The position numbers and the translations under genes were made by a program. The notes below the pieces were generated by a model. It ran no database searches and was not told where the DNA came from. It was given only the letters and a program-made list of their open reading frames with translations. Positions 4,621 through 21,093 of a DNA stretch of 64,000 bases are shown here, one piece after another (positions within the stretch are counted from its first letter, which is position 1; each line of letters starts with the position of its first letter). This DNA comes from Stappia sp. ES.058 (GTDB taxonomy: Bacteria > Pseudomonadota > Alphaproteobacteria > Rhizobiales > Stappiaceae): positions 1-64,000 of the forward strand of contig NZ_LT629784.1 of the NCBI RefSeq assembly GCF_900105595.1, written 5' to 3'.

Positions 4621-4629
4621 TTTGCCTCC

Positions 4630-6711: not shown

Positions 6712-7719
6712 TCAGTTGATCACGCCGCTGAGTTCGGAAAGCGCCCCGTAAGCGCCATCCACCATCTCCTGGCTGGCTTCGGGGCCGATCCAATCCGAGC
6801 CTACGCCAGCTTCGCGGGCCGCAGCCTTGTATGCGTCGCTGGTGACGACCTTCTTATAGGCGTCGAGCAGTGCTTCGTAGCGGTCGGGATGCTCGTCCTT
6901 CAGGGCAGACGGCACGATCAGGCCGCTGATATTGCCGCCAATGATCGGCTGCTTTTCGGCCCCAAGCGCAACCAGCGCGTCATTCAGCAAGGGGGCCCCC
7001 ATGCTGTCCGGATCATTGTCGTTGACAATCGCGAGCACCTTGAGGCTGTCCATGATCGAAGCCGCGCCACGGGCGGCCAGGACCTCGAAATCGACCTGAT
7101 TGCCGGCAAGCGCCGTCCGCAAAGGAGCACCGCCATCATATGTGACGAAGCGGACGTTTTCCACAGGGATGTCCAGCGCGTTCATGGCAAGGATGGTCTG
7201 AAGATGCCCGCCATTGCCGTAGATGATCCCCGAAGACACGGTGCCCGGCTCTTTCATCGCCTCGACGAGTTGGTCGAAGGTCTCGTAGGGGCTGTCGTTA
7301 TGTACCGCCCAGATCGCGTAGTCGTTCCACTGCGCGTTCAGAAGGCTGAAGTCCTCCCACTTGACCGGCGCGCCGCCAACGAGAATGGCATTGGCGAGAT
7401 AGGGGGTCGCCTGCATCAACAGCAACGTGTTTCCGTCTGCAGGCTGCTGGATGAGGTAGGTCGCCCCGAGGCCGCCTGCACCGCCGGGACGGTTCTCAAC
7501 CACCACCGGAACGCCGAGCTCCTTGCTCATCGGGTCGGCCAGGGTCCGTGCCATTCGGTCTGCGGAGCCGCCGGCATTGAAGGGAACGATGATCGTGATC
7601 GGCCCTTTGGGCCAGCCTTCGGCGGCCTGAACGGTGCCGGTGCCGAGACCCAGAGTAAACAGGGCTGCGGCCGCGAGACCAAGGAAGCTGCGACGCGAGG
7701 CGTCTTTGAAACTAGGCAT
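6712..7719 (-). CDS. tctC: tripartite tricarboxylate transporter substrate-binding protein (TctC/Bug family)
   Basis: 335 residues. The N-terminus carries RRSFLGLAAAALF followed by a small-residue cleavage site near VQAAEG, a signal peptide with twin-arginine character. The mature part has Bug-family features: WPKGPITIIVPFNAGGSADRMAR at the start of domain 1 (positions about 37-58), then VVVENRPGGAGGLGA. Bug proteins bind small carboxylates through two water-mediated loops in the cleft. It is the first gene of the transporter operon and is transcribed away from the gntR gene. The next genes encode LeuC/LeuD-like proteins, so a hydroxy-di- or tricarboxylate is a reasonable but unproven ligand. 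Confidence 0.93.
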   Translation of the reverse strand: MPSFKDASRRSFLGLAAAALFTLGLGTGTVQAAEGWPKGPITIIVPFNAGGSADRMARTLADPMSKELGVPVVVENRPGGAGGLGATYLIQQPADGNTLLLMQATPYLANAILVGGAPVKWEDFSLLNAQWNDYAIWAVHNDSPYETFDQLVEAMKEPGTVSSGIIYGNGGHLQTILAMNALDIPVENVRFVTYDGGAPLRTALAGNQVDFEVLAARGAASIMDSLKVLAIVNDNDPDSMGAPLLNDALVALGAEKQPIIGGNISGLIVPSALKDEHPDRYEALLDAYKKVVTSDAYKAAAREAGVGSDWIGPEASQEMVDGAYGALSELSGVIN

Positions 7720-7778
7720 GTGATCCTCCCAGAATATTGTTTAGGCTCGATTCGCCTACCCCAAATTGCTAAATAATC

Positions 7779-7796
7779 CTATTGTTATGTCAATAG
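7779..7796. promoter_or_regulatory. perfect inverted repeat, candidate GntR operator overlapping a -35 box
   Basis: CTATTG-ttatgt-CAATAG is a perfect 6+6 bp inverted repeat in the 173-bp divergent region between tctC and gntR. On the minus strand, bases 7793-7788 read TTGACA, a consensus -35 hexamer pointing toward tctC, with a poorer AT-rich -10 candidate downstream. An operator covering the -35 element of the transporter operon fits control by the divergent GntR/UTRA regulator. Binding is inferred. Confidence 0.5.
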
Positions 7797-7849
7797 TACA
7801 TTTCACTTGGATTGGGCGTTCGAAGCGACTAATCATTGTGAAAGAGATT

Positions 7850-7884
7850 GCTCATCCTGTTGAAAGACACCGCTCATCCTGTTG
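7850..7884 (+). repeat. 13-bp direct repeat, 22-bp period, in the gntR leader
   Basis: GCTCATCCTGTTG occurs at 7850-7862 and again at 7872-7884, a centre-to-centre spacing of 22 bp, about two helical turns. The second copy abuts the GGAGGAGG ribosome-binding site of gntR. It could be a regulator-binding pair or a small duplication. It lies between the divergent promoters. Confidence 0.4.
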
Positions 7885-7892
7885 GAGGAGGC

Positions 7893-8720
7893 ATGAAGAA
7901 GACGCTTATCGAAGGATCGACGCACCCCCGCATACAAGCGGATGATACCCCGCTTCCCAAGCACCACCGCGTCTACCTCGTTCTCAGGCAAGAGATCGAG
8001 GACTGGGTCTATTCCGATACCGAGCCGATGCAGGGCGACCTCGCACTGGCAGAGCGTTTCGATGTTTCCCGGATCACGATACGCAAGGCGATGGACCGTC
8101 TGGCTGCCGAGCGCATGGTCGAACGCCAGCGTGGCCGCGGCACGTTCGCGCGCAAGCGGGACGGCCAGCCGTCCCCCGTCACGGCGAGTCTTTCGGGAAA
8201 TATCGAGAACCTGCTCGCGCTTGGCCTGCAGACCGACGTCGACCTCATCGAATTCACCTATGCGGTCGCGCCGCCACACATTTGTGCCGCCATGAACCTG
8301 CCTGCCGGAACGGTCATGCAGCGCGCGATCCGGGTGCGCAGTCTCGACGGCCTGCCCTTCAGCCATTTGACGACATGGCTGCCCGAAGAGATCGGGCGCA
8401 GCTTCGGCGCCGAGCAGATGCGGCAGACGGCGCTTCTGCGTCTGATCGAACGTGCGGGACACCCGATCGCCTCGGCACGCCAGGTCATCACGGCCAAGCT
8501 CGCCACTCCGGAGGTCGCAAATCTGTTGGAAATCGAGCCCGGCGAGGCGCTGCTGGCGGTGCGCCGCATCGTATACGACGAGGCTGGACGGGCGGTCGAG
8601 CACATCAACGGCCTCTACCGGCCCGACACATACGAACATGAAATGGAATACGTCCGCAGTCGCACCCCGGAGGCGGAATTATGGACAACCCGAGACACAC
8701 GCAACGGGGCCGACACATGA
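7893..8720 (+). CDS. GntR-family transcriptional regulator with UTRA ligand-binding domain (HutC subfamily)
   Basis: I chose the ATG at 7893, directly after GGAGGAGG, over the upstream TTG at 7848; this gives 275 residues. The N-terminal winged helix-turn-helix is visible (LALAERFDVSRITIRKAMDRLAAERMVERQRGRGTF). The remaining ~150 residues match the UTRA domain pattern: a paired LxGNIENL start, RAIRVRSLDGLPFSHLTTWLP, and a late VRRIVYDEAGRAVEHINGLYRPD. UTRA domains bind small effectors, often a pathway metabolite. The gene is divergent from the transporter operon and overlaps the downstream lyase gene by 4 bp (ATGA). It probably represses one or both transcripts until the imported acid or an intermediate is present. 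Confidence 0.92.
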   Translation: MKKTLIEGSTHPRIQADDTPLPKHHRVYLVLRQEIEDWVYSDTEPMQGDLALAERFDVSRITIRKAMDRLAAERMVERQRGRGTFARKRDGQPSPVTASLSGNIENLLALGLQTDVDLIEFTYAVAPPHICAAMNLPAGTVMQRAIRVRSLDGLPFSHLTTWLPEEIGRSFGAEQMRQTALLRLIERAGHPIASARQVITAKLATPEVANLLEIEPGEALLAVRRIVYDEAGRAVEHINGLYRPDTYEHEMEYVRSRTPEAELWTTRDTRNGADT

Positions 8721-9577
8721 GCGATTTGAAAACCATGCTGGCCGATTCGAGCCGCGGCATAGTAGCGCCGGGGGTCTACGACGCCTTGACCGCGCTTCTG
8801 GCCGAGCAGGCCGGGTTCGACTGTCTTTACCTCTCCGGCGCCTCGATCGCCTATTCAAGGCTGGGTCGGCCCGACATCGGTCTTGTGTCGGTGTCCGAAG
8901 TAATTGCGACCACCGAGCTCATCACCGATCGGGTCGACCTGCCCGTGATCGTCGATGGCGACACCGGCTTTGGCAATGCGCTGAACGTGCAGCGCACCGT
9001 ACGCGGCTTCGAACGCGCGGGCGCACAGGCGATCCAGCTTGAAGACCAGAGCTTTCCAAAGCGCTGCGGCCATCTTGCCGGGAAGAAGCTGGTCGGCAAG
9101 GAGGAGATGGTCGGCAAGATTCGCGCAGCCCTCGATGCCCGCGACAGTGATCGTCTTCAGATCATCGCGCGTACCGACGCCATTGCCGTCGAAGGGTTCG
9201 ATGCCGCCCTCGCGCGGGCCGAGGCTTATGCCGAGGCTGGTGCCGATGTCCTCTTCATCGAAGCGCCGCGCTCGCCGGAACAGCTGGGCGCGATCGCCGA
9301 GAGGTTTTCCGGACATGTCCCCCTGCTCGCCAACATGGTCGAGGGAGGGATGACCCCGATGAATTCGGCGCAGGATTTGCACGACCGCGGCTTTCGCATC
9401 GTCATATTCCCCGGCGGTGCCGCCCGTGCAATGCTGCGTCAGGGCCAAGCCTATTACGCGAGTTTGAAAGACAACGGCAGCAACGCCCCGTTTCGTGAGC
9501 GGATGGCTGATTTCGACGAACTGAATGACGTCATTGGCTTGCCCGAGATGCTGGAGTCCGCGAAAAAATACGAATGA
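8717..9577 (+). CDS. isocitrate lyase/PEP mutase-family lyase (2-methylisocitrate or dimethylmalate lyase-like)
   Basis: 286 residues from the ATG at 8717, which overlaps the gntR stop (ATGA); a longer start at 8681 is less likely. The fold signature is clear: APGVYDALTA at the start, DGDTGFGN for metal binding, EDQ, and KRCGH containing the catalytic Cys that marks the lyases (PrpB-like) within this superfamily. A late SAQDLHDRGFRIVIFPGGA stretch is also typical. The reaction is probably retro-aldol cleavage of a 2- or 2,3-substituted malate/isocitrate to pyruvate or glyoxylate plus a second acid. With a LeuCD-like hydratase and an organic-acid importer alongside, it resembles the dimethylmaleate hydratase plus dimethylmalate lyase pairing known from nicotinate degradation. 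The exact substrate is inference. Confidence 0.85.
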   Translation: MSDLKTMLADSSRGIVAPGVYDALTALLAEQAGFDCLYLSGASIAYSRLGRPDIGLVSVSEVIATTELITDRVDLPVIVDGDTGFGNALNVQRTVRGFERAGAQAIQLEDQSFPKRCGHLAGKKLVGKEEMVGKIRAALDARDSDRLQIIARTDAIAVEGFDAALARAEAYAEAGADVLFIEAPRSPEQLGAIAERFSGHVPLLANMVEGGMTPMNSAQDLHDRGFRIVIFPGGAARAMLRQGQAYYASLKDNGSNAPFRERMADFDELNDVIGLPEMLESAKKYE

Positions 9578-9875
9578 TGCAGCGCCTTGTTTCACAAATC
9601 GGCTGAGGGGCTCACCGCGTGACACGGTGCTGTCAGACCAATTCGAACCAGTCTCTGCAAGGACAGTGAGGCTGCCCCTTGTGCCGCGCTGTGAACAGCC
9701 CCTGGGGTCTTTGACGCCTTGAGCTACTCCCCGGATCGTTGGACAGATTTCGGCGTAACTCAAGCCACTCGTTGTATCTGCCGATCAGATTGGTGTTGTT
9801 GAACGCTATTGCCAATAGACCACCGCAGGCGACCTGTCGCCAGGGGCTGAATGCGGGGGCTTCCGATTGCATAAA

Positions 9876-10209
9876 TCACTCCATTTCCGGACACCGGCCT
9901 GGCCCGTTAGCCGGCTTCCCATGGATCGAGATGCGCACGCCGAGACCTGGTTCGACCGGTCCACCCTCAGTCCCTTGAGCAGATATGGCCAGATCTTGTG
10001 TCCCTTGGCCGGTCTTGAGGTGTTGGGCTTCTGGTCGATCGGCATCAGACCCATGAGCCGCATCAGCCGCATGATCCGCTTCCATGGACGGATCATGGTG
10101 GGATGAACTTCCGAAGAACTCGCCCTTCCGAGACCGGTTCCTCGCCCCCTCAGGGCTTTCAGGGCGACCTTCGCCTTGCTCCCCGCGCGCGCTGCTTGCG
10201 TTTCGACAT
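9876..10209 (-). mobile_element. IS3-family insertion sequence remnant with internal deletions
   Basis: Read on the minus strand from 10209, the start of an OrfA is recognisable (MSKRKQRARG, SKAKVALKALRG, then VHPTMIRPWKR), with frame slips. It jumps directly into the OrfB middle part (RLMRLMGLMPIDQKPNTSRPAKGHK, WPYLL.GLRVDR.NQV). At about NQV the sequence jumps again to something like the late OrfB GISISMDGK region (here GVRISIHGK) and ends. The DDE catalytic core is therefore deleted. Two internal deletions plus frameshifts mean it cannot transpose by itself. Flanks 9578-9875 and 10210-10396 show no intact gene; I could not identify terminal inverted repeats. Confidence 0.7.
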
Positions 10210-10396
10210 CTCAGACCTGCATGTTCTTGAAGACCGGCACACCACAAGCCGGAGCTTACGTCAGACCGATTTTCGGGAGGTCCTCCGCTCTCTCCCCCGA
10301 GGGCTCTGTGACACAGCCTACATCACGGCTTTCAGGAACATTATTTGATAATTTAAAAGAGGTACCGCTTCTTCGATTTCCTTCGAGGAGGCAAAA

Positions 10397-11374
10397 TTGG
10401 AACTATCGGATCTGGAAGGGGCAGCACGGCGCTTTGTGCGTGAGTGTCGCGATATCAAATCGTTGTCGGCGAATACGATTAGCGCATATGAGCAAGATCT
10501 TGCTGAGTTCGAGGTGTTTTTCGGGGCGGAGGAGGTCGGAAGCGAGATCGATGTGACTCTCGTTGGCGATTATATCCAGTGGCTGCGCGAGAGGCGGGAA
10601 CTCAAGCCGGCAACGATCCGGCGGCGCATCGCGTGCCTCAAATCCTTCTGTCGTTGGTTGAAGGAACAGGGGCTGGCTTTACAGTCGCCTTTTGACGAGA
10701 AGACTATTGTCGTCCGTATCCCCAAAAGATTGCCCCGAGCCCTGACCCGAAGCCAGGCCAGTCAGGTCGCAAAAGCGGTTTCCGAAGAGCCAAGAGTTGC
10801 GGGTGTCCCGCGACGGGGAGACGCGATGCTATCGCAACATGACCCCTTGTCGGATCCATGCGATCCAAGGGTGACGACCCATCTCGCCGTAAGCCTCATG
10901 CTCGCCTCGGGAATGCGGGTGGGTGAACTGACGGCAATCCGACTGGGCGATATCGATCCGACCTGTTCTGTGATCAACATTACCGGAAAGGGGTCGAGGG
11001 AACGAACTGTCTTCCTGACCAACGCCCGATTGGTGCATGTGCTCCGCCGTTATATCGCCGCGCTTGTGGAGCATTGCGCGGCGGATAACGTCCTCCTGCG
11101 CAATGCACGAGGCAGGGCTTTGACCCCGCAGGCGCTACGCCTTCGCCTGCGCAAGCTTGGAGACCGTCTGGCCTTTTCGCAACGCCTCACTCCGCACCGG
11201 TTCCGACATACGGCCGCGACGATCCTTCTGGAGGAAGGCGTAGACATCCGCTACGTCCAGCGCCTTCTTGGGCATTCCAGTATTTCGACAACCGAGATCT
11301 ACACACATGTGACGGATGTAAGCCTTCGTCAAGCGCTGGAACGAGCAGATGTGGTCGGGCGAGTGGGGATTTGA
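10397..11374 (+). CDS. tyrosine site-specific recombinase (XerC/D-like)
   Basis: 325 residues starting at a TTG codon preceded by GAGGAGG. The N-terminal SAM-like core-binding domain covers about residues 8-95 (SANTISAYEQDL...). All catalytic residues are present: Arg174 in SGMRVGEL, Lys198 in GKGSRER, His267/Arg270 in HRFRH, His293 in LLGHSS and nucleophile Tyr302 in IYTHV. The length suits an Xer-like or invertase-type enzyme rather than a phage integrase with an arm-binding domain. An unusual insert (about 135-160, with PRRGDAMLSQHDPLSDP) precedes the first catalytic Arg. The gene stops 16 bp before a 21-bp repeat that recurs inverted at 15027-15047, so it is the obvious candidate to invert the segment between them. 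It may instead serve an integrated island. Confidence 0.93.
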   Translation: MELSDLEGAARRFVRECRDIKSLSANTISAYEQDLAEFEVFFGAEEVGSEIDVTLVGDYIQWLRERRELKPATIRRRIACLKSFCRWLKEQGLALQSPFDEKTIVVRIPKRLPRALTRSQASQVAKAVSEEPRVAGVPRRGDAMLSQHDPLSDPCDPRVTTHLAVSLMLASGMRVGELTAIRLGDIDPTCSVINITGKGSRERTVFLTNARLVHVLRRYIAALVEHCAADNVLLRNARGRALTPQALRLRLRKLGDRLAFSQRLTPHRFRHTAATILLEEGVDIRYVQRLLGHSSISTTEIYTHVTDVSLRQALERADVVGRVGI

Positions 11375-11390
11375 GGAGGGAGATGTATCG

Positions 11391-11411
11391 ATAACTGAGA
11401 ATTATCAATGC
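11391..11411 (+). repeat. left 21-bp inverted repeat (IRL), putative recombination site
   Basis: The 20 bases ataactgagaattatcaATG plus a following c are repeated perfectly, in inverse orientation, at 15027-15047. The last ATG is the start codon of the STAND gene. With the preceding g, the site shows GATAA-ctgagaa-TTATC, two inverted arms around a 7-bp asymmetric spacer. This is the layout of a tyrosine-recombinase crossover site. Confidence 0.8.
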
Positions 11412-13921
11412 GTGAGCGGCAGCCCGATGCGCGTTTATGGACCGCCATAGGTATTCAAGATAAAGTGTCCGACATGCTGGGCAGAATACTATCCGGCGAC
11501 GTGAGTGCGGCAGTGATCACTGGGCCGCCCGGGTGCGGCAAGACCTGGTTGGCGCGCAGTATCGGCGCAAGCTTTGTCGAGGCGGGTGGCGTCGCATTTC
11601 GTGGGGTAGGAGATGATGGTGAGGCGAACCGCCGATTGTACCCCCTGCAACGTGCTCAGGCTGAAACGTCTGGCTACTTCAAGCCGGCGGTCACAGTGGG
11701 AAAAGCGTTAGCAAATGTTGCTGCCAAGGTGGCTTCGGGAGGGATGTTTGATGCAGAAGGTGCTCTCCAAGCCTTAGATGCCGAAGCTGCAAGGCGCAAG
11801 CGTGGCTCCATGTTCCTGGCGGAAGACGAGCAATCTGTGCTCTCAGATCTCGCGGTCCACGCAGGTGGAAGACCGGCGCTATTAATCGTCGAAAACCTGC
11901 ACTGGTGGGATCGGGACTCTCTTTCCCTTCTACGCACGATGCTGAAGCGGGAAGTTGTGACTGCTTTCCCGTTTCTCGGTCAGCTGCGGGTAGTAGCAAC
12001 GACGACAAATTCTGATTACCAGCAGCCGATTTGGAGGGAGGCTTACTCCAAGCACGTAGTGCCGCTGCTTCCGGTAGAGATCGAAATGGGGTACGTTGAG
12101 CGCTCCCAATTACGGACCCTACGACAGGCACTTGCCATCCCGGACGCAGTCAAGGATGAGGATTTTGAGTTTGTACATGGAATAAGCGGCGGCCATCTCG
12201 CAGTGATTGGTGAGGCCTGCCGTTACCTAAGCGATAGTGGAACCACCGTGAATGAGCTGGCGCCGGAAGACCGCGCGCGATTTGTCGAAGACCTCTTCTT
12301 GCAGCGCTTACGAAGCATTGGAACTTTAGGAGATGTCGCAAAGGAACTGCTTCACGCAGCTTCGGTCATCGGAAATACGGCCTCACGGGTGGAGCTGCTT
12401 TGTGTCTATCGACACAATGGAAGTGATCCAGAGCTAGCGATCCAGTTATGTCGAGATTTTGGATTCTTGGAGGATCGCGGTGATGTAGTGGAGTTTCGCC
12501 ACCAATACATAAAGGAGTTTTTTGCCAAGGATCTCGGGCCGGAAGAAAAGACACTACGTCGAGCCTTCTCAGAATGCTTACGCCAGCTCACCCCTCACGA
12601 TTATCAAAGGCGAGCGCGAAACATCTTGAAGTCCGGTGACCGCAAGAGTGCCGCTGATCTTTTTGTCGCAGCCGCCGCAGAAAACCTACGCTTCGGACGA
12701 CCACCGCATCACCTCATGCACTCCGAAGAGAAAGAGCTCGTTCTCGAAGAGGGACTGGGGCCGCTAGCAGATTGCCTCCAGGAGGCATATTCACTGCTAT
12801 CCAGAGGAAGATTTGACGAAGCTTGCACGCTCATGGATCAACAAAGTCCAATATACTCTCCGCTTGTACTGGCAGAAATTGAGTATGTTCGATCCCAAGG
12901 CGACCTCAACTCGCGAGATGCCGTTAGAAGGGCAAGGATGCTCGAAAGGCTAAAGGAATGGGGGCACCACATCGACGCGGAATTCGAGCAGGGATTACGT
13001 CTCGCCATGTTGTATCGCTCCGGTCTGGTGTTGGAGTTTGACAAGACCAGAGCACGCTCCATCGAAGGAGATCTGACCCGGAGGCTCAGCGAAAGGATCC
13101 GATACGACGAAATGGCCGAGTCAAAAATCCATATGCTAGGTCGTAGCGCGGAGAGCTTGTTCCTTCCAGACATAGCGCTTCATCGCGCCCAGAGGGCTGT
13201 ACAATTTCATAGGCCGGAGGTTGGGGGCACTCCAAAGGAGCCGGCTGAATACTTTCGCTGTCTGACTAATCTGACAGCACTTAATATCGGCAACGGAAAC
13301 TATAGCGCTGCGGAGTCGCTAGCGCTAGAAACGGTGGCGCTGGCTGATAGGTTTGAGGATGTTGCTTTTCCCAGAAGCGACATGGTGCGCTCCATGCTCG
13401 TCATGGCCCAATATCGTGGGGGTGCCGTATCGGCAGCGGCGGCGGCGGACGAGCTGATCGCTGTCATCCAAAACTATGGCTTGAGCGGCGATCCCTACTA
13501 TACCAAGAACCATCTGGCTGTTTATTACTGTCTTTCCAAAAAGCTAGAAGAAGGAATTGCGCTATTCTGCGAACTGAAAGCTCAGCTCGAAAAGATAGGC
13601 GATCCTGAGCCGAATCCCCTTTATTTCGTGAGTTCAAACCTGTGCTGTGCCAGGTTTCTAAACGGTGAAAGCCCTAAGACTAGCAAAGCTGAATGGGCCG
13701 CTTTGGGCGAAGTCGTTAATCGCATTCCATACGAAACTAGGCATTTGCTGAAAAGACGTCATGAGTTAATGGCGCCCCTTTTTGACAAACCGTGCGCGTT
13801 ATCCCCAGCAAGTTGGGATACTTATCCTCTCAACGAAGAGGACAATCCTTTGCATCCGTGTTGGATCGAAATTGGTCGCGGTTTCAGGATGCCAGATGTG
13901 CAATTTTGGTCTATGTATTAG
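11408..13921 (+). CDS. STAND/AAA-type NTPase with helical repeat C-terminus
   Basis: 837 residues. A P-loop GPPGCGKT (39-46) and Walker B ALLIVENLHWWD (about 157-168) identify an AAA-16/STAND ATPase module. The VENLHW form resembles that of AfsR/LuxR-type STAND regulators (ExDLHW). A winged-helix-like stretch follows to about residue 390 (EFRHQYIKEFF). The rest, about 400 residues, is alpha-helical and TPR-like (for example LMDQQSPIYSPLVLAEIEYV and FRCLTNLTALNIGNGNYSAAESLALETV), as expected for a sensor domain. I see no DNA-binding, nuclease or TIR domain, so its output is unclear. The start ATG is inside the left inverted repeat and the stop overlaps that of the convergent ATP-grasp gene. 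Codon use is less GC-biased than in core genes, fitting acquisition. Confidence 0.85.
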   Translation: MRERQPDARLWTAIGIQDKVSDMLGRILSGDVSAAVITGPPGCGKTWLARSIGASFVEAGGVAFRGVGDDGEANRRLYPLQRAQAETSGYFKPAVTVGKALANVAAKVASGGMFDAEGALQALDAEAARRKRGSMFLAEDEQSVLSDLAVHAGGRPALLIVENLHWWDRDSLSLLRTMLKREVVTAFPFLGQLRVVATTTNSDYQQPIWREAYSKHVVPLLPVEIEMGYVERSQLRTLRQALAIPDAVKDEDFEFVHGISGGHLAVIGEACRYLSDSGTTVNELAPEDRARFVEDLFLQRLRSIGTLGDVAKELLHAASVIGNTASRVELLCVYRHNGSDPELAIQLCRDFGFLEDRGDVVEFRHQYIKEFFAKDLGPEEKTLRRAFSECLRQLTPHDYQRRARNILKSGDRKSAADLFVAAAAENLRFGRPPHHLMHSEEKELVLEEGLGPLADCLQEAYSLLSRGRFDEACTLMDQQSPIYSPLVLAEIEYVRSQGDLNSRDAVRRARMLERLKEWGHHIDAEFEQGLRLAMLYRSGLVLEFDKTRARSIEGDLTRRLSERIRYDEMAESKIHMLGRSAESLFLPDIALHRAQRAVQFHRPEVGGTPKEPAEYFRCLTNLTALNIGNGNYSAAESLALETVALADRFEDVAFPRSDMVRSMLVMAQYRGGAVSAAAAADELIAVIQNYGLSGDPYYTKNHLAVYYCLSKKLEEGIALFCELKAQLEKIGDPEPNPLYFVSSNLCCARFLNGESPKTSKAEWAALGEVVNRIPYETRHLLKRRHELMAPLFDKPCALSPASWDTYPLNEEDNPLHPCWIEIGRGFRMPDVQFWSMY

Positions 13922-15030
13922 CGGCGTAGCTCTTGACTGAGGCTTGCCCCGATAAGCAGAAGAGGGGTGTTTTCAAATGCGATTCCACGCTTCTTGAGAA
14001 TGTGTGCAAGTGAACTCGCCTCAGACGTTCCAGGGTTGTCAGCGATATCAATCACGTAGGCTTTGCCAGCCGATGTCACCCTAAAGTCGACGCGACCAAC
14101 ATTTGACATCGCCATCAGCGCAAAGGTGCTTAGGGCGTTATCCGCGATCGCTGACCGTGTCTTTTCTGGTAGATCGTCGCAGTCACTGTAAACAATCCCA
14201 CCCGGACGATAATGATCATCGAATACCAGATAGCTTCCGTTTGACTTTGGACCGTTAGAAGAACTTGCTTCGGCTAGTCCAACCATCATCGGTGTGCCGT
14301 TGTCCACGACAAGCGCGTAGATTTCGCGTCCTTCAATGAATTCCTGAACGCAAACAGGCTGACCGATATCGTCGGCCAAATCTGCGATGCGACGCTCCAT
14401 CGCTTCGTCGAAAGGGCCGACCGTGCTCTCTGAGACCCCTATACTCCACGCCTCGTACGTGGACTTGCAAATCACCTTTTTCCCCGGTTTTGGTTTTCCG
14501 GTAATCCAGCCATGTTTGCTGTCATATGACCAGGTATCAGGCACCCCGATTTTTGCTTGGCGCATGAGCATCGATTGGTGATGCTTGTGTCTGGTGATCG
14601 CCGCAGAGTAGGCGTCGGCATGCCCATAGTGATAACCGAACAGCCTAGCCAGGAGAGCGCCCATTGAACGCCGTGCTGGACCAAATCCGTCGCGATGTCC
14701 TCCGCCTTCTGTTTTATCTAACACTACTGTGGTGCTTGCCCTCGCCGGAAAAGCCTTTCCCTCCAAGGCAAGCTGCATGAACCTCTCAAAACCAAAAACC
14801 GTCTGACATGCGATCCCGCAGCGCTGAAACGTCCCAGCAAGGAAGTTCAACTCGGTGTCGCTGATCATTCGTTCCTGAAATCTCACCGATTTGAGCGAAC
14901 TCATGCGGTCCGCTGCTGCAGTATCGTCAGCTATTATAAGGATCGCCGTACTGTGAGCCTGCTCAATCGTGAGGTCGATAAGCGCCTGCAACTCGGCAAC
15001 TGTAGCCCATCTTGGTACCGTCGATGGCAT
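13918..15030 (-). CDS. ATP-grasp family ligase (D-Ala-D-Ala ligase-like)
   Basis: 370 residues. The ATP-grasp fold is seen from about residue 145: KHHQSMLMRQAKIGVPDTW opens the B-subdomain, KKVICKSTYEAWSIGVSE provides the nucleotide-binding Lys and loop, and VQEFIEGREIYALVV the hinge. RVDFRV and YVIDIADNPGTSEASSL carry the metal-binding D/E and N. In canonical D-Ala ligases the last motif is EINxxPG; here it is DIADNPG. The N-terminal ~140 residues are divergent. It probably joins an amino- or hydroxy-acid to a carboxylate at ATP cost; the substrate is unknown. The ATG at 15030 lies inside the right inverted repeat, and the stop overlaps that of the convergent STAND gene by 3-4 bp. Confidence 0.82.
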   Translation of the reverse strand: MPSTVPRWATVAELQALIDLTIEQAHSTAILIIADDTAAADRMSSLKSVRFQERMISDTELNFLAGTFQRCGIACQTVFGFERFMQLALEGKAFPARASTTVVLDKTEGGGHRDGFGPARRSMGALLARLFGYHYGHADAYSAAITRHKHHQSMLMRQAKIGVPDTWSYDSKHGWITGKPKPGKKVICKSTYEAWSIGVSESTVGPFDEAMERRIADLADDIGQPVCVQEFIEGREIYALVVDNGTPMMVGLAEASSSNGPKSNGSYLVFDDHYRPGGIVYSDCDDLPEKTRSAIADNALSTFALMAMSNVGRVDFRVTSAGKAYVIDIADNPGTSEASSLAHILKKRGIAFENTPLLLIGASLSQELRR

Positions 15031-15047
15031 TGATAATTCTCAGTTAT
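15027..15047 (-). repeat. right 21-bp inverted repeat (IRR), putative recombination site
   Basis: This is the reverse complement of 11391-11411 with no mismatch across 21 bp; identity ends abruptly on both sides. It contains the ATG of the ATP-grasp gene (15030-15028). The minus-strand arms read CATAA-ctgagaa-TTATC. The 109 bp between it and the helicase stop (15157) show no convincing terminator. A weak promoter pointing toward the repeat (TTGCCA, 16 bp, TAGGGT on the minus strand) is possible. Confidence 0.8.
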
Positions 15048-15156
15048 GTGAAATTGACAATCACACTACCCTAGCGGAAGAAGCGTATCTGGCAACCGCA
15101 AACTGCTACCGCTTGTGTTCCACCGCTCGACGTCTTTGCCCGCGAAAGGAGCGCTC

Positions 15157-17391
15157 TCAATCCACCGCATCCAGAACCGCTCTCGCCATCGCTGGCAGCA
15201 TCCGCGTTAACTCAGTGTGATCCCTCGCCCAAAGTCGCCGCAGCAATGACACCGGGGCATAGTCGTCATATTTAGCGGTCTCGAAGCTCTCGATGAATTC
15301 GGCGAGTGCCTGCGATGTCGGTGGCGGCGTGGTCGCCATGTGTTTCAACAGGGATCGGGCTTCCTCCAGGCTGGTATCTTCCAGTGTGATGCCGACATCG
15401 TGCGGCCAGGCTTTGACCCCTGCGCCGAGGAAGGCGAGGGCCAGGAGCGCATTCGCCTTGCTGCCGCGCCAGGTGAAGAGGTGCAAGGCTTCGTCTTCAG
15501 GCAGAAGCCGGCAGCTTTCGAGCCTCAGCTCGAGGAAAGTCTTGCGGGCCTCGGCAAGCATCCGGCGGGCTTCGGCGTCCAGATAGGGCGGGGTTGCATT
15601 TTCCAGAAGGACGTTCCGCATTTGGGCGACGAGACGGTCGTGAACCGGTTCGGCAGCCTGATCCGCGAAAAGCGGCACCTTGCCTGCCCGGTGTTGCACG
15701 ACTTGAAGCACCTTGCCCGGCTCATCGACTGTTTCCACGCGCCAGCGGCGGCCGGCAAAAAGCAGGATCGAACCCGGGCCGACCTCGTTGAAAAGCGGGA
15801 TCGTGCCGAGAAAGCGGTCGCCGGCGACGAGCCGCCATTCCTGGTCGGTGGGAAAGATCGCGTAAAAATCGCGCGAGGTCGTCAGCCGTTCGCCTTCCGG
15901 ACCGAGCATGATGGTGCGGTCCGGTGCCTGTTCGAGAAGGGCCGGATCATGCGCTGCCATGGCCCGCAAAAGCTCCGCGTAGTCGCTTGTGCTCAGCGCG
16001 GAGAGAGGGCCGGTGCCGCAAATCGCCCGATAGAGCGTGTCGGCGCGCGCGCCACCCTGGGCTGCAATGATCGACAACGTTTGATGCAGAGCGACGGTTA
16101 CGTTGGCCGGATCTGCCTCCGGCGGCTCGATGAAACGCTCGACAAGAAGTTGTATCGAGGCGATCGCCTGGACGAGATCGAGCCGCAATCGGTCGAGCGG
16201 GCCACTTTCGGGAAACAGGTGCGGCGCGCGGCAATAGATGCGCAGGATCGCCGGCGCGCCCTTGCGCCGACCGCTGCGACCGAGCCTCTGGCGCAATGAG
16301 GCAAGCGAGCGCGGGGCGCCGACCTGGGCGACCGAGACGACGGAACCCAGATCAATGCCAAGTTCCAGCGTCGTCGTGGCAACGGCCGTGGTCGGCAGGT
16401 CGCCCTGTTTCAAGCGCGCCTCCACCTCGTGGCGTGCATGGCGCGAAAGGCTGCCGTGATGGGCGAAGAACTCGTTTGGAACATTGTGTCGCTCGGCGCG
16501 GCGCTGAAGCCGGTCGGTGATGGCCTCGACCATCTTGCGCGATCCGCCGAACACAAGGTTGTTGCTGCCGCGCAACGTGTCGAACATGTGGTCGCCGATC
16601 CCGTCAAGCGCGCGCACCGGCGGCTCGTCGCTCTCCACGATATCGAAGAAGTCCACGTCCGCAGGCTCCTCGTAGCCACGGATCTGGAGCTTCAGTTCCG
16701 GAGATCCGGTCCTGGCCTCGATGATGTGGACGTTCGCGGTGTCCTCCCAGTTCAACCAGCGCGCAGCGATGGTGAGATCACCGATCGTGGCGGACAGGCC
16801 AACCCGACGGGGCCGCTTGTCCGCAAGCGCATCGATGCGGCGAAGCAGGCTCGCCAGATGCAGGCCGCGCGGCCCCTGAAGGAAAGCGTGCAACTCGTCG
16901 ATGACGATGAATTCGAGCCCGCCGAAAAGCCGTCGGGCCGCCTCGGGCTTGCGCACCAGCAGGGCTTCGATCGATTCCGGCGTGATCAGCGCGATGCCGG
17001 CCGGATTGCCCAGCACTTTCGCCTTGGCCCCGGCCGGCGCATCCCCGTGCCAGCGCACGACCGGAATGTCGAGCCGTTCGCACAGCGGTTCCAACCGACG
17101 AAACTGATCGTTGATGAGAGCCTTCAGCGGGCCGACATAGAGCGCGGACAGTCCTCCGCCTTCGTGCTCTGCGATCCGGGTCAGGACCGGGAGAAACGCG
17201 GCTTCCGTCTTGCCTGCTGCGGTCGCCGCCGCAACGAGGACATCGCCGGTTTCTTCCAGCACGGCGCGGATCGTCTTTTCCTGCACATCGCGCAGTTCCG
17301 ACCAGTTCTGCTCCCAGATCCAGCGGCGGATCTGCGGGTGCAGCCGGTCAAAAGCCGCGATCTCAGAGGCGGAGGGAGGCAAGGTCGCCAT
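15157..17391 (-). CDS. sngC: Shango SngC-like: Lhr-type DEAD/DEAH helicase
   Basis: 744 residues from the ATG at 17391, which leaves a short overlap with the upstream ATPase gene; a start at 17445 is also possible. The superfamily 2 motifs are in order: AAATAAGKTEAA (motif I), GPLKALINDQ (Ia), TPESIEALL, IDELHAF (motif II, DELH variant), GLSATIGD (III), HHGSLSRHARHEVE (IV), TTTLELGIDLGSV (V) and QRLGRSGRRKG (VI). This is the Lhr-like helicase pattern, followed by a C-terminal winged-helix and beta-rich region. It is the last gene of a TerB protein/ATPase/helicase operon, the composition reported for the Shango antiphage system. There it presumably acts on phage nucleic acid. Confidence 0.85.
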   Translation of the reverse strand: MATLPPSASEIAAFDRLHPQIRRWIWEQNWSELRDVQEKTIRAVLEETGDVLVAAATAAGKTEAAFLPVLTRIAEHEGGGLSALYVGPLKALINDQFRRLEPLCERLDIPVVRWHGDAPAGAKAKVLGNPAGIALITPESIEALLVRKPEAARRLFGGLEFIVIDELHAFLQGPRGLHLASLLRRIDALADKRPRRVGLSATIGDLTIAARWLNWEDTANVHIIEARTGSPELKLQIRGYEEPADVDFFDIVESDEPPVRALDGIGDHMFDTLRGSNNLVFGGSRKMVEAITDRLQRRAERHNVPNEFFAHHGSLSRHARHEVEARLKQGDLPTTAVATTTLELGIDLGSVVSVAQVGAPRSLASLRQRLGRSGRRKGAPAILRIYCRAPHLFPESGPLDRLRLDLVQAIASIQLLVERFIEPPEADPANVTVALHQTLSIIAAQGGARADTLYRAICGTGPLSALSTSDYAELLRAMAAHDPALLEQAPDRTIMLGPEGERLTTSRDFYAIFPTDQEWRLVAGDRFLGTIPLFNEVGPGSILLFAGRRWRVETVDEPGKVLQVVQHRAGKVPLFADQAAEPVHDRLVAQMRNVLLENATPPYLDAEARRMLAEARKTFLELRLESCRLLPEDEALHLFTWRGSKANALLALAFLGAGVKAWPHDVGITLEDTSLEEARSLLKHMATTPPPTSQALAEFIESFETAKYDDYAPVSLLRRLWARDHTELTRMLPAMARAVLDAVD

Positions 17392-18691
17392 CGCTGCCCG
17401 GGCCTGGGTCTGAGCTTGCGTCGCCTTCGTCCTCGGCACCGTCATCAGTGTCTGCGGCGAGTTCGACGTCGCCCAGCAAGGACCGCCAGTCGGTTCCCGG
17501 GTTCTGGTCGAGAACGGCCAACAGTTGCACGAAGGCCTTGATGGTGGAGCGCGGCGTGCGGAAATAGGCCTCGCCGATGCGCTGGTTGCAATGGGCCATG
17601 AAGGCCGTCAGCGCCTCGTCCGGGACGAGATAGTGCTCCGGCTCGCCAAGCGCGAAGACCTTGCGGATGTTGCCGAGCAGGACGAGCAGTTCTTCCGGCG
17701 TCAGGCTTTGAAGCCTAATGACGGGGCCCGTGAAGTCAACGAGGCCGTTGCGGGCGAAAGCATTTTCAGCCAGGCGCGATTGCAGTGCCGGGTAGCTGTA
17801 GAGACCGCGACGGGTGTCCATCAGGAACTCAGGCGTTCCGCCGAACAGGAAGCCGAGACCCGAAACGCTTCCTTGAAGAACGTCGTTCAGCATGGCGAGT
17901 ATCTGCTCGAAATTCTGGTTCCGGGCTTGTGCGCTTTGCAGCTTGTAGAGGTTCACCATCTCGTCGAAGACGACGAGGAGCCCGGCATAGCCCGCCTGCC
18001 GTACGAAAGCTGCCAAGAGCTTGAGCCCGTCATAGACATCCGCATCGTCGATGATCGTGCGCACGCCAAGCGCCTGCCGGGCCTCGGTCTTGGTGGAGTA
18101 TTCCCCGCGCAGCCAGCGCAGCGCGGCTCCTTTGAGGATTTCGTCGTCGCTCTCGCTGCCGCGCCAGTAGGCTTTCAGCACGGTTGCGAAATCATAGCCG
18201 CCGACGAGATCCTGCAAATGAGCAAGACGTTCGTCGATGACCTGCTCGACCGGAACGCCGTTTCGTTCGCTTTCGCGGGTGCACCCGGTGACGAATTTTT
18301 CCACCACGCTTGCAAGCGCACCGCCATCCGGCTTGGTGCGGGTCGCCATGTTGCGGACGGCTTCTGCATAAAGCCCGCGCGCCTGGCCGCCTGTTGCATG
18401 GATCCGGCGATCGGGGGCGAGATCCGCATGAACCGTCACCAGTTTTCGTTCCAGCGCGATAAGGCGGGTAAGGTTGAGAAAGAAGGTCTTTCCGGCACCA
18501 TATTCGCCGATGATGAAGCGGAGTGCGGCTCCGTCGCCGGCGATACGGTCAATATCGCGCACGAGCGCGGAAACCTCTCCGGCGCGACCGACCTGAACAT
18601 GCTGCAAACCAGTGCGCGGAACGACGCCTGCCGCGAGCGCCTGAAGGATCGTGTCCTTATCCTTGCCGCGGATGGGCTTTTGCGTGCTCAT
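17363..18691 (-). CDS. sngB: Shango SngB-like: ATPase (BrxD-like, DUF2791-type)
   Basis: 442 residues from the ATG at 18691, which overlaps the TerB gene stop as ATGA; the in-frame upstream start at 18718 is less likely. Walker A is GEYGAGKT (about 62-69) and Walker B is LLVVFDEMVNL (about 233-243). FGGTPEFLMDTRRGLYSY, then RLAENAFA, follow. This set resembles the BREX-type ATP-binding proteins (BrxD). The C-terminus ends in an acidic Asp/Glu-rich tail. The gene sits between a TerB-domain gene and an Lhr-like helicase gene with overlaps on both sides, so the three products are made together and probably form one complex. Confidence 0.85.
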   Translation of the reverse strand: MSTQKPIRGKDKDTILQALAAGVVPRTGLQHVQVGRAGEVSALVRDIDRIAGDGAALRFIIGEYGAGKTFFLNLTRLIALERKLVTVHADLAPDRRIHATGGQARGLYAEAVRNMATRTKPDGGALASVVEKFVTGCTRESERNGVPVEQVIDERLAHLQDLVGGYDFATVLKAYWRGSESDDEILKGAALRWLRGEYSTKTEARQALGVRTIIDDADVYDGLKLLAAFVRQAGYAGLLVVFDEMVNLYKLQSAQARNQNFEQILAMLNDVLQGSVSGLGFLFGGTPEFLMDTRRGLYSYPALQSRLAENAFARNGLVDFTGPVIRLQSLTPEELLVLLGNIRKVFALGEPEHYLVPDEALTAFMAHCNQRIGEAYFRTPRSTIKAFVQLLAVLDQNPGTDWRSLLGDVELAADTDDGAEDEGDASSDPGPGSDGDLASLRL

Positions 18692-21021
18692 GAGCGCATT
18701 TCCTTCGTTTCCCGACATATTTCATGCAACAGCGGCCGCATGTGTTCGGCCACCGTCAGTTCATCGTCATCCTCGAGAACGGGTTCGTCGTAGAGCTCGA
18801 AGCCCCATTCGTTGATTGTCTCGATCGCGCCATCCGGCAGCACGCGAAGTTCCTTCGCGCGTCCCTCGAAGGCCGAGCGCTCGACCCGTTGTTCAGTGAG
18901 CAGGAAGAGAAGGAGATCTCCGTGTTCCGTATCCAGGCCGTCGAACGGCCGCCGGTGCGAACTTGCCTGGGGACGGTGAGGGGTGACCGAGGCTTCCTCT
19001 TCGATGAAAATTTCGGAGAGAAGACTGGAAACGGCACTGGTCTCGGAAAGGATACGGGTCAGTCGATCGTTGTCGATATCCACTTGCGCCCTTGTTGCAG
19101 ATACAGGTGCCGGTGCCGGAGGCGGCGGAATGGGATGTCCGGGCTCCGATGTTTCCGTCATGACCGTGACGGGCTCCTCGGCGACCACGTTGCCGCTGTG
19201 AAGGGCGCCATAGAGCTCTTCCTTCGGGAAGCCCAGCGTTTTCCAGAGCTTCTCGATGAAGACGACTTCCGAGTGCGAGACATGACCGTCGGCAAGGACG
19301 ACGGCCACGGTGGCCTGCGCGACGCGGCGGCGACCGGCGTCGTCCAGTTTTGCCAGTCCCTTCATGAGCGCGCGGCTGTTGGCGGTGCCGCCAAGGAGGG
19401 CGCTGGCGTACGCAAGGAGACGGACGCGCTCGACAGGACCAAGCCCGGGTACCGCACTTATTTCCTGCTGCAGGGTCGCAAGTTCGCTCGCATCCACGAC
19501 GCCGTCGGCCCAAGCGGCCAGAGCATTGATTTCCACGATGGTCCGCGCCGCGTGGAACTGCGCGCGATCCTGATCCACAGCCGCCGCATTGGCGGCCCGG
19601 AAGAAAACGACCGTACCATCGGGGGGAGGCGGAACCGCACCGTAGCGACGGTCGGGTTCATAGCCGATGTCGAGCCGGTCGAGCGCGGCGCCCAGCTTGT
19701 TGAAGAGGGAGGCGGGGACCTTCCCCTCTCCCGGCGCTCCCAATCCCACCTTTTCGCAAAGCTCGGCCAAAGCGATCTTGCCCGTTGGCCGTCCGGCAAA
19801 CGTCTCGGAGATTTTTTGCGAAAGTGCCTTGAGGGGATTGTCATCGTCGCACGACAGGAAGGCCTTTGGCAGAAGCACCGCGGCCTCGGTGCTTTGCGCA
19901 TCCTCCGGCCGCTTGCCGACAAAGCGGCTGTAGCTCTCCAGGTCGCTCGTGCAGGTCTCCGCGATGGCGGCGAAACCTTTCAGCGGGCTTGTCAGGCTCG
20001 TGATGTCAGGAATTGCTGTGGCACCGGTCAGGGTGGCCGTGAAGGTGCCGCTGGCGGCTCGGTAGCCGGTATTCTTCAAGGTGCGCTTTGGCGTGCGGAC
20101 CTTGAGGCCTTCGGGATGACGTTCCTGAAAACGGATCTTCCAAAGGGTCTGGAACAGATCAAAGCACCGTTTTGCCGGTGTTCGCAGGCGCGTCTCGGGC
20201 AATGATACGAACCAGAGCAGGCAATCTTCCGCGTCGAGGACCTGACCATCGGCAAGCCGGGCACCCAGATACAGGCGTGCGGGGAGGGGGAATTCGAAGC
20301 CGTGACTTGCCTCGGCGTCGATTTCGGGTCTCGTGCGGAGATTGCCGGAAAGCGGCGAGGCAAATTCGAGGAATTGCGTTGCGTAGTTTCGAAACGATCC
20401 GTTTCGGCCATAAATCGAAATCAGGCGCCGCACTTCATCGATGATGGCGTCATTGTCTCGAGACGCCTCATCGACGAAAAAACGTCGCTCGAGGCCATAA
20501 AAATAGAGAAAGACGTACCCGATAGAGGCATCGGGATCGTCGCGCGCGGATGCCAGCCATTCGAGATAGGATCGGCGGGCATTCGGATGGATCCGGCTAT
20601 AGGAGGGCCAATACGGCATGGACTGACCGGCGGGATCACCTCCGCGGCCGATCATGAGGCTGGGATTGACGAGGCAATTCTCCGGTTGATCGAAATCCGT
20701 CGCGCAAAGCGATTGTCCGAAATAGAAATTCCCGCCCAATATCTCCAAGCCGGCGATTGCGACCTTGTCTCCGGGAGACACCCAGCGTGCGGGAGATGCC
20801 GCTGAAGCGGTTTGCCTTGAGGATTTGTATTGTCGGGACGCACCCGCTTGTTGCCAGCGCTCCTCCGGGATCCCTGACATAGTGGCCTGCGAGGGCGAAG
20901 AACTTCCTGTGGCGCCTTCTTGTCGTCTGAAAATGTAGAAAATGACGGCAATACCGGCGAGAATCAGCAAGAGTTCCAAGTCTCTTCCTCCAAGAGCTTG
21001 GTTTGAAACAGATTGCAGCAT
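18688..21021 (-). CDS. sngA: Shango SngA-like: membrane-anchored TerB-domain protein
   Basis: 777 residues from the ATG at 21021; a longer start at 21072 exists, but the shorter one places a membrane helix at the N-terminus (LELLLILAGIAVIFYIF, about 14-30). A TerB-N domain follows, recognisable from MPYWPSYSRIHPNARRSYL, then YVFLYFYGLERR. A central TerB domain (helical, about 500-620, with VVLADGHVSHSEVVFIEKLW) comes next, then a TerB-C-like end. This N-TM, TerB-N, TerB, TerB-C layout matches the first Shango protein. Anchoring to the membrane suggests a sensing or effector role there. It is first in the operon; upstream lies only the recombinase remnant, so the promoter is within about 21022-21200. 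Confidence 0.83.
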   Translation of the reverse strand: MLQSVSNQALGGRDLELLLILAGIAVIFYIFRRQEGATGSSSPSQATMSGIPEERWQQAGASRQYKSSRQTASAASPARWVSPGDKVAIAGLEILGGNFYFGQSLCATDFDQPENCLVNPSLMIGRGGDPAGQSMPYWPSYSRIHPNARRSYLEWLASARDDPDASIGYVFLYFYGLERRFFVDEASRDNDAIIDEVRRLISIYGRNGSFRNYATQFLEFASPLSGNLRTRPEIDAEASHGFEFPLPARLYLGARLADGQVLDAEDCLLWFVSLPETRLRTPAKRCFDLFQTLWKIRFQERHPEGLKVRTPKRTLKNTGYRAASGTFTATLTGATAIPDITSLTSPLKGFAAIAETCTSDLESYSRFVGKRPEDAQSTEAAVLLPKAFLSCDDDNPLKALSQKISETFAGRPTGKIALAELCEKVGLGAPGEGKVPASLFNKLGAALDRLDIGYEPDRRYGAVPPPPDGTVVFFRAANAAAVDQDRAQFHAARTIVEINALAAWADGVVDASELATLQQEISAVPGLGPVERVRLLAYASALLGGTANSRALMKGLAKLDDAGRRRVAQATVAVVLADGHVSHSEVVFIEKLWKTLGFPKEELYGALHSGNVVAEEPVTVMTETSEPGHPIPPPPAPAPVSATRAQVDIDNDRLTRILSETSAVSSLLSEIFIEEEASVTPHRPQASSHRRPFDGLDTEHGDLLLFLLTEQRVERSAFEGRAKELRVLPDGAIETINEWGFELYDEPVLEDDDELTVAEHMRPLLHEICRETKEMRS

Positions 21022-21093
21022 GGCACAGGACCATCCCGCATGGGAAGGTTCCCGTGGCAGAGCCTGTTCCACTGAAATGCGGGGAGTAGTTCA

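Follow-up and report, generated by a model that had tools for sequence, protein, structure and literature searches.

A two-gene cassette between inverted sites

The stretch of DNA analysed here, referred to as the window, comprises positions 1 to 64,000 of contig NZ_LT629784.1 of Stappia sp. ES.058 (assembly GCF_900105595.1), and contains a segment (11391-15047) in which two convergent genes lie between the arms of a perfect 21-bp inverted repeat. The left repeat (11391-11411, plus strand) and its inverted copy on the right (15027-15047, minus strand) share the layout (g/c)ATAA-CTGAGAA-TTATC in opposite orientation, that is, arms ATAA and TTAT around the 7-bp spacer CTGAGAA, which occupies 11395-11401 at the left site. 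The sole enclosed genes are S (11408-13921, plus strand), which encodes an 837-residue STAND-type NTPase with C-terminal helical/TPR-like repeats (AAA_16, 8.5e-12), and A (13918-15030, minus strand), which encodes a 370-residue ATP-grasp enzyme with a D-Ala-D-Ala-ligase-like C-terminal half (Dala_Dala_lig_C, 2.7e-14). The 3' ends of these genes overlap by 4 bp, while their ATG codons (11408-11410 for S and 15030-15028 for A) both fall within the repeats. Outside the left repeat, and stopping 16 bp short of it, lies the complete open reading frame (ORF) of gene R (10397-11374, plus strand, TTG start), the presumed invertase, encoding a 325-residue XerC/D-like tyrosine recombinase with a SAM-like N domain and Arg, HxxRH, LGH and Tyr boxes (Phage_integrase, 4e-36). 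On the other side, an outer flank (15048-15156; the F side) runs from the right site to a Shango defence operon.

The repeat exceeds chance expectation in length; among 200 mononucleotide shuffles of the 10 kb around the cassette, no inverted repeat with arms more than 500 bp apart was longer than 17 bp. The pattern ATAA-N7-TTATCAATG matches twice in the window and not at all in 100 shuffles. The exact core ATAACTGAGAATTAT occurs four times in the 4.63-Mb genome, namely at both cassette sites and at their counterparts at the contig end; among inexact matches of the 15-bp core the best has two mismatches and seven others have three, and a reversed control pattern gives nine matches. A sequence-only reading of the window had described the repeat, the two enclosed convergent genes, the start codons inside the repeats, the arms with their identical but oppositely oriented spacers, and the recombinase gene ending 16 bp outside, and sequence, ORFs and domain matches bore out each of these points. 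The possibility, raised in the same reading, that the repeat is a general promoter element finds no backing in the genome, where the exact core is present nowhere else beyond the contig-end copies.

The assembly holds the segment in both orientations

From about 4,601,327 to its end, the sole contig runs through the first 24.7 kb of the window a second time, which is what a circular chromosome left untrimmed would give. In this second copy, 11391-15047 matches at 100% in reverse orientation, with breakpoints at the 21-bp repeats. After the segment was flipped in silico, and with the last 154 bases of the contig excluded, the two copies aligned over 24,691 bases with no mismatches and 22 gap bases, of which 15 fall within the final 2.7 kb of the alignment, a pattern like that of poorly polished long-read sequence, presumably the read type used here. 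R is followed by S at the contig start and by A at the contig end. Since both orientations are found in one assembly with breakpoints at the repeats, the sample held both, and the segment inverts between the 21-bp repeats. Hence, the inversion between the repeats proposed in the sequence-only reading is borne out by the two contig ends.

The untrimmed state of the contig and the crowding of gap bases towards the end of the alignment would suit a misassembly, or a true second chromosomal copy, as the origin of the inverted copy; nevertheless, we regard such an origin as highly improbable. A long-read assembler would not be misled by a repeat of only 21 bp exactly at the ends of an inverted repeat, breaks or joins at sites of this kind occur in six other assemblies (see below), and a genuine 24.7-kb duplication would still show one copy inverted.

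As a side observation, the terminal overlap of at least 24.7 kb means that this part of the window contains genes that are counted twice in the assembly, and the inverted cassette may explain the failure of the contig to close.

Related cassettes in five phyla

Sequence comparisons indicate that the window cassette belongs to a class whose cargo is exchangeable, which goes beyond the earlier single-locus view. Twenty-one loci from five phyla, counted as complete pairs with near-identical plasmids taken once, possess an inverted ATAA-N7-TTAT pair around two opposed genes or operons, and these genes usually start in or just behind the sites (the window, two cassettes of L032, L033-L037, L056, L086-L089, L108, L112, L114, L116-L119 and L154; L and G numbers denote loci and genomes, respectively). 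The hosts include Methylobacterium, Phaeobacter and Ruegeria (Pseudomonadota), Solirubrobacter and two metagenome-assembled genomes (MAGs) of Actinomycetota, a Desulfovibrio MAG (Thermodesulfobacteriota), Paenibacillus and Streptococcus (Bacillota), and Aliarcobacter (Campylobacterota). R adjoins 20 of the 21 cassettes, within about 210 bp of a site, the contig of L089 being too short to tell; in L034 and L035 it lies on a sister contig, and in cassette 1 of L032 it has an internal stop.

Among the matches listed, at least 19 protein relatives of A (itself included) and at least 11 of S were found, and those for which DNA was fetched mostly show R followed by an inverted site pair around convergent A and S. 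When 151 genomes were searched with A, 40 gave a match; the best match outside its own genome was in G134 (1.8e-30), and those in the rest of the 40 are Ddl-like, at 3.8e-11 or worse. The pattern ATAACTNNGAATTAT was matched in 28 of 385 genomes of the taxonomic class of the window, with inverted same-spacer pairs 2-4 kb apart on one contig in five (its own genome, G481, G162, G236 and G245), while G190 and G441 each contribute two contigs that break off 8 to 121 bases past a site. Within the phylum of the Desulfovibrio MAG, represented by 297 genomes, and that of Solirubrobacter, represented by 246, the respective centre genome alone had matching sites twice or more; elsewhere the pattern was matched singly, except in two genomes that had two differing sites on separate contigs. 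Because ATAACTNNGAATTAT fixes a CTnnGAA spacer, cassettes of the Streptococcus, Aliarcobacter, Methylobacterium and Ruegeria types escape it. Plasmid loci were obtained through recombinase homology, 23 being taken from 40 listed matches of at least 5,000 matching records, and a site pair is present at 11 of these 23, in one case with the far site beyond the stretch viewed. The viral collection contained no relatives of A or S, and the pattern GATAACTNGGAATTATC was matched there in nine contigs at one site each, without a pair; hence, nothing suggests a phage origin.

Both orientations are also found outside the window. Among relatives, A lies next to R at seven loci (L031, L033, G152, G151, L036, L056 and L118) and S at three (L032 cassette 2, L037 and L117); L031 is a short contig, and S was not found on it. 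This comparison of related genomes had been suggested as a check in the sequence-only reading, and it shows the two arrangements that were predicted. Furthermore, six assemblies besides that of the window carry fork or junction signatures of both orientations, as judged from the assemblies and not from reads. In the isolate Solirubrobacter phytolaccae KCTC 29190, the cassette contig reaches 1 base past each 15-bp core, which is exactly the stretch common to both flanks, and two flank contigs each end 47 bases into the cassette. In G152, a flank contig stops exactly where A/S identity ends (18 bases), and the cassette contig exactly where the identity of the two flanks ends (9 bases). In G190, two contigs whose flanks differ terminate identically, in one site followed by 82 shared bases of gene start; the shorter flank contig of G441 stops 8 bases past the site, all 8 being common with the other contig; and the cassette contig of G245 stops exactly at three shared bases. 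Finally, the scaffold gap of L032 has flank-site-A beside R-site-A, and the opposite end reads R-site-S.

Recombination sites at the start codons

Strand exchange by a tyrosine recombinase predicts spacers that are identical within and different between loci. Both ends carry the same spacer in 21 of 21 pairs, an identity that is partly built in by the search design, with several loci found as exact inverted repeats or by a pattern that fixes five of the seven spacer bases. Overall there are ten spacer forms (CTGAGAA, CTCGGAA, CTAGGAA, CTGGGAA, CTATGAA, CCGAGAA, TCGGGGA, TAAATTG, TAGGTAA and TAGGATA), and the incomplete locus G190 has CTAAGAA. Within eight of the ten, a Shine-Dalgarno-like triplet (GAG, GGA or AGG) lies a few bases ahead of the start codon, while for the other two (Streptococcus and Paenibacillus) the Shine-Dalgarno sequence lies in the repeat just after the core. 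Taken from annotation or from an ORF search, the start codons of L032, L036, L037, L086-L089, L112, L114 and L116-L119 range in position from 2 bases inside the core to 21 nucleotides behind it. L108 and L154 depart from this, with three annotated starts located either upstream of the site or 31 nucleotides past it. In view of these Shine-Dalgarno-like spacers near start codons, the crossover site appears to double as a translation leader. Indeed, in the window the recombination site lies in the leader and the start codon is kept after inversion.

An imperfect palindrome situated directly at two start codons, as the core is, might also serve as a shared operator, in which case the repeated leader would co-regulate S and A and no functional inversion would be involved. 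We give this explanation next to no credence, as both orientations are observed, the exact core is absent elsewhere in the genome, and the spacers match within a locus but vary between loci.

The recombinase

By sequence, R is most like XerC, XerD and XerA. The HxxRH, LGH and Tyr boxes are present in all 21 cassette recombinase rows, and the strict first-Arg-box pattern in 15, including that of the window (it missed L033, L039, L053, L056, L118 and L119). Each of six genomes tested, that of the window among them, has two further Xer-type genes, to which the names XerC and XerD were assigned from rank and tree, the XerD family cut-off being passed in only two of the six. In a midpoint-rooted tree, the 13 XerC/XerD rows form one clade (100/99) with no cassette recombinase inside, and all 21 rows from cassette recombinases lie elsewhere in the tree, divided between two groups. 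The first, of 13, contains those of Pseudomonadota, Actinomycetota and further genomes of the taxonomic class of the window, mixed with plasmid relatives labelled as lacking a cassette, a label that is wrong for Ruegeria pSD25 (L107), which has one. The second, of eight (88/83), contains those of Bacillota, Campylobacterota and the Desulfovibrio MAG, and is nearer to XerC/XerD.

That the adjacent R performs the inversion can be strongly inferred. The arms ATAA and TTAT resemble those of dif, and genes taken as host XerC and XerD are present, so the host proteins might instead invert the segment via dif-like sites and leave R with another role. This seems very unlikely, given that R lies within about 210 bp of a site at nearly all loci and is phylogenetically distinct from XerC/XerD, and that the spacers vary between loci as expected for dedicated recombinases. 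The housekeeping XerC/XerD-dif system itself had been a candidate and was rejected, R lying outside the XerC/XerD clade.

Cargo gene pairs

The cargo was assigned by Pfam and PADLOC, plasmid annotation and tblastn. A STAND NTPase opposite an ATP-grasp enzyme is found in the window, L032 cassette 2, L033-L037, L056 and L089, and by domain content also in L117 and L118, so that this pair type spans five phyla. Other cassettes pair a SIR2-STAND protein with an aminotransferase and a sulfotransferase (L032 cassette 1), a TIR-like protein (PADLOC, 2e-6; weak HEAT match) with a GT2 glycosyltransferase (L086), an Mrr-type STAND protein and a HAD hydrolase with two GT4 glycosyltransferase pieces (L108), a STAND/TPR protein with a serine hydroxymethyltransferase-like pyridoxal phosphate enzyme (L116), and an ATP-binding protein, apparently split from its neighbour by IS21, with a carbamoyltransferase (L154). 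There is no recognisable immune-type side in five loci: L087 (a weak ATP-grasp match opposite a 553-residue protein without assigned family), L088 (a methyltransferase and a 415-residue protein without assigned family), L112 (a polyprenyl synthase and a 330-residue protein without assigned family), and L114 and L119, which both pair a GNAT-like protein with a methyltransferase. The latter pair is common to Streptococcus (L114) and Aliarcobacter (L119), the proteins being 29% and 42% identical. The packing is tail to tail, ranging from a 70-bp overlap to a 43-bp gap in the 17 cassettes for which both 3' ends were read. The SIR2-STAND cassette of L032 (2430-9263) lies beside the other cassette of that locus, and it is its own recombinase copy that has the internal stop.

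In the window, S and A are unrelated to each other and neither has surface-protein domains. The AlphaFold model of S (predicted local distance difference test, pLDDT, 84) gave the STAND-TPR structure 6mfv as its best Foldseek match in the PDB (E-value 2e-11), with Avs3 after it and the plant NLR Roq1 in fifth place, all at low whole-chain template modelling (TM) scores of 0.23-0.24. S is therefore predicted to resemble STAND sensors. Like the STAND-type anti-phage NTPases (Avs), it would combine a P-loop NTPase with helical repeats, a likeness of fold only; unlike them, it begins at the P-loop and has no N-terminal effector domain, the whole-chain TM is low, and no PADLOC model matches well. 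Among the PADLOC defence models, none matched A, and S gave only weak P-loop matches, the best being mad8 (5e-4). For A (pLDDT 88), the 50 nearest folds listed are Ddl-type ligases (TM by query 0.56-0.71, 13-18% identity), and its model resembles D-Ala-D-Ala ligases in fold.

Proposed gene choice by inversion

Taken together, we propose that 11391-15047 is an invertible gene-choice cassette, a phase-variation unit complete in itself, belonging to a class with replaceable gene pairs, its two genes acting as partners, and we assign this reading a probability of roughly 0.85. R would recombine the inversely oriented ATAA-N7-TTAT sites, which span the ribosome-binding region and start codons of the two tail-to-tail genes, and inversion, as seen at the two contig ends, swaps S and A between an R-side slot, behind R, and an F-side slot, facing the outer flank. 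Since leader and start codon are kept on inversion, either gene should be translatable in either slot. Due to the tail-to-tail overlap, each slot would provide one sense gene together with antisense to the other, so that the cell should favour one of them; unequal expression is also to be expected because the R-side slot lies 16 bp behind R, while the F-side slot faces an intergenic flank. A choice of expressed gene is the probable outcome. The F side (15048-15156) offers a larger intergenic space than the 16 bp on the R side, with room for an inward-reading promoter; a promoter at that position is favoured by conservation of the outer flank in L032, and divergent R genes in L108, L112, L114, L116 and L154 would allow one on the R side. 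Certain pairs stay together from one phylum to another, which suggests a functional partnership between two genes that are expressed in separate cells. One state would thus provide an intracellular sensor or effector, and the other a small-molecule, peptide or surface-modifying enzyme.

Several observations weigh against this proposal. At the remaining 12 of the 23 plasmid recombinase loci, a number that may include misses, no site pair was found within up to 7 kb on each side, so a cassette does not always accompany this recombinase family. Near-identical P. inhibens plasmids show one orientation in three out of three cases, and the near-identical plasmids of S. salivarius NU10 and S. equinus likewise share one orientation. 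Promoter and terminator scans gave no promoter match above chance and one weak sigma-70-like match in the outer flank, and hence do not tell which slot is active. The share of within-pair spacer identity that comes from the search design must also be counted here.

Cassette replacement

The megaplasmids of S. salivarius carry the same R and flanks around three unrelated gene pairs. L112 and L116 align at 98.9% identity as far as the left site (4600-4880) and once more from the right site onwards (6892-12302), and in between no homology was found apart from the sites themselves. Alignment of L112 with L114 is interrupted at these two points as well (97% for the 208 bp leading up to the left site and 91% past the right one), and the Aliarcobacter plasmids L118 and L119 follow the same pattern, with flanks of 97.8% and 90.4%. 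In L032, the two neighbouring cassettes agree in R (92.6% over 1,059 bp) and outer flank (79.6% over 216 bp) but have unrelated cargo; their spacers differ, which would keep the two from recombining together. The simplest reading of these alignments is replacement at the sites, carried out by the recombinase or else through homologous recombination within the flanks.

Such data raise the question as to whether the sites serve mainly for cassette exchange between replicons, with inversion a side effect of two inverted identical sites. The abrupt end of homology at the sites in Streptococcus and Aliarcobacter, where unrelated pairs sit between near-identical flanks, and the unlike spacers of L032 are in line with this explanation, which we consider unlikely, although it deserves more weight than any other alternative discussed above. 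Mobility needs neither start codons in or behind the sites nor Shine-Dalgarno-like spacers, and it does not need tail-to-tail packing or lasting gene pairs; all of these suit gene choice. Furthermore, both orientations coexist in samples. The gene-choice cassette may also be viewed more broadly, as a widespread natural platform that phase-varies and horizontally exchanges partner gene pairs, setting an immune-type NTPase or effector against a modifying or biosynthetic enzyme so as to produce two cell types. A clonal population would then be split, for example into enzyme makers and sensors, and a whole pair could be replaced in a single recombination event. This broader view is tentative, and we rate its chances at somewhat below even.

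Comparison with known systems

The vpma switch of Mycoplasma agalactiae is the nearest described mechanism, judging by the part of its description available to us: a locus-encoded Xer1 acts on sites in 5' untranslated regions (-72 to the start codon) of six lipoprotein genes with one known promoter (PMC2268961). As in the cassette, inversion there changes which whole gene is expressed and the leader is retained. In contrast, vpma is a family of paralogous surface genes, unlike the two genes of the cassette, and the portion available describes no unrelated convergent pairs, no immune-type NTPase with an enzyme and no cassette replacement; the cassette class has opposed unrelated partners, often immune-type cargo, a range of five phyla, and replaceable cassettes. 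The inversions of PsrA in Streptococcus pneumoniae reportedly shuffle parts of the type I restriction hsdS specificity genes. According to the available part of one report, these tyrosine recombinase inversions give rise to subpopulations (PMC7096588). The likeness to the cassette lies in tyrosine recombinase inversion beside a defence locus, while the cassette differs in exchanging whole unrelated genes with start codons in the sites. Tyrosine recombinase inversion is also the basis of Fim-type invertible promoters and Rci shufflons, which switch promoters or 3' ends. Unlike these systems, the cassette is a two-slot gene choice (for the Fim-type and Rci systems see PMC11852207, available in part).

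PinQ is a serine recombinase that, in the portion of the source at hand, inverts cryptic prophage DNA and blocks adsorption of phage T2, and the same portion states that recombinases often adjoin anti-phage genes (PMC12529663). What PinQ has in common with the cassette is a DNA inversion, in its case tied to phage resistance; it differs in being a serine recombinase acting on a prophage segment, and the part of the source available shows no opposed pair with start codons in the sites. In laboratory recombinase-mediated cassette exchange, inverted lox or FRT sites around a payload make it invertible or exchangeable. The present cassettes, by comparison, are apparently natural, have spacer-typed sites and bring their own recombinase.

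No description of such cassettes was found among the matches listed from open-licence PubMed Central (PMC) papers, a body that is without subscription papers and preprints, and a keyword look-up in the available part of PMC5903667 gave no match; within open-licence PMC and among those matches, the statement in the sequence-only reading that this gene pair and geometry match no described system therefore held. What is added is an inversion, verified by sequence, through which two unrelated partner genes alternate between two slots, together with apparent natural cassette exchange at spacer-typed sites. An inverted ATAA-N7-TTAT pair beside a recombinase is an easily scanned signature for new, possibly immune, gene pairs, and phase variation of immune-type NTPases becomes testable. 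Orthogonal recombinase-site pairs could also serve as tools.

Neighbouring genes and other observations

The Shango operon sngA-sngB-sngC (15157-21072, minus strand), which adjoins the cassette but lies outside it, is complete by PADLOC (SngC 1e-247, SngB 1e-177, SngA 3e-85). It is transcribed towards the cassette, and the F-side slot is thus downstream of Shango. Ahead of R, about 0.8 kb (~9580-10390) contains short ORFs only (up to about 125 residues) and may hold remnants of an older insertion. In the Agrobacterium plasmid pTiCG920 (L111), near 7001-7735, the recombinase match is in three pieces with a site, ATAACTAGGAATTAT, behind it, and no inverted partner with the spacer of ATAACTAGGAATTAT was found in 14.7 kb; judged by its sequence, this is probably a decayed cassette. 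Finally, the cassette of Methylobacterium radiotolerans pMRAD01 (L036, 1-5630) lies near qatC/qatD and a TIR-domain gene, in a defence-rich neighbourhood.

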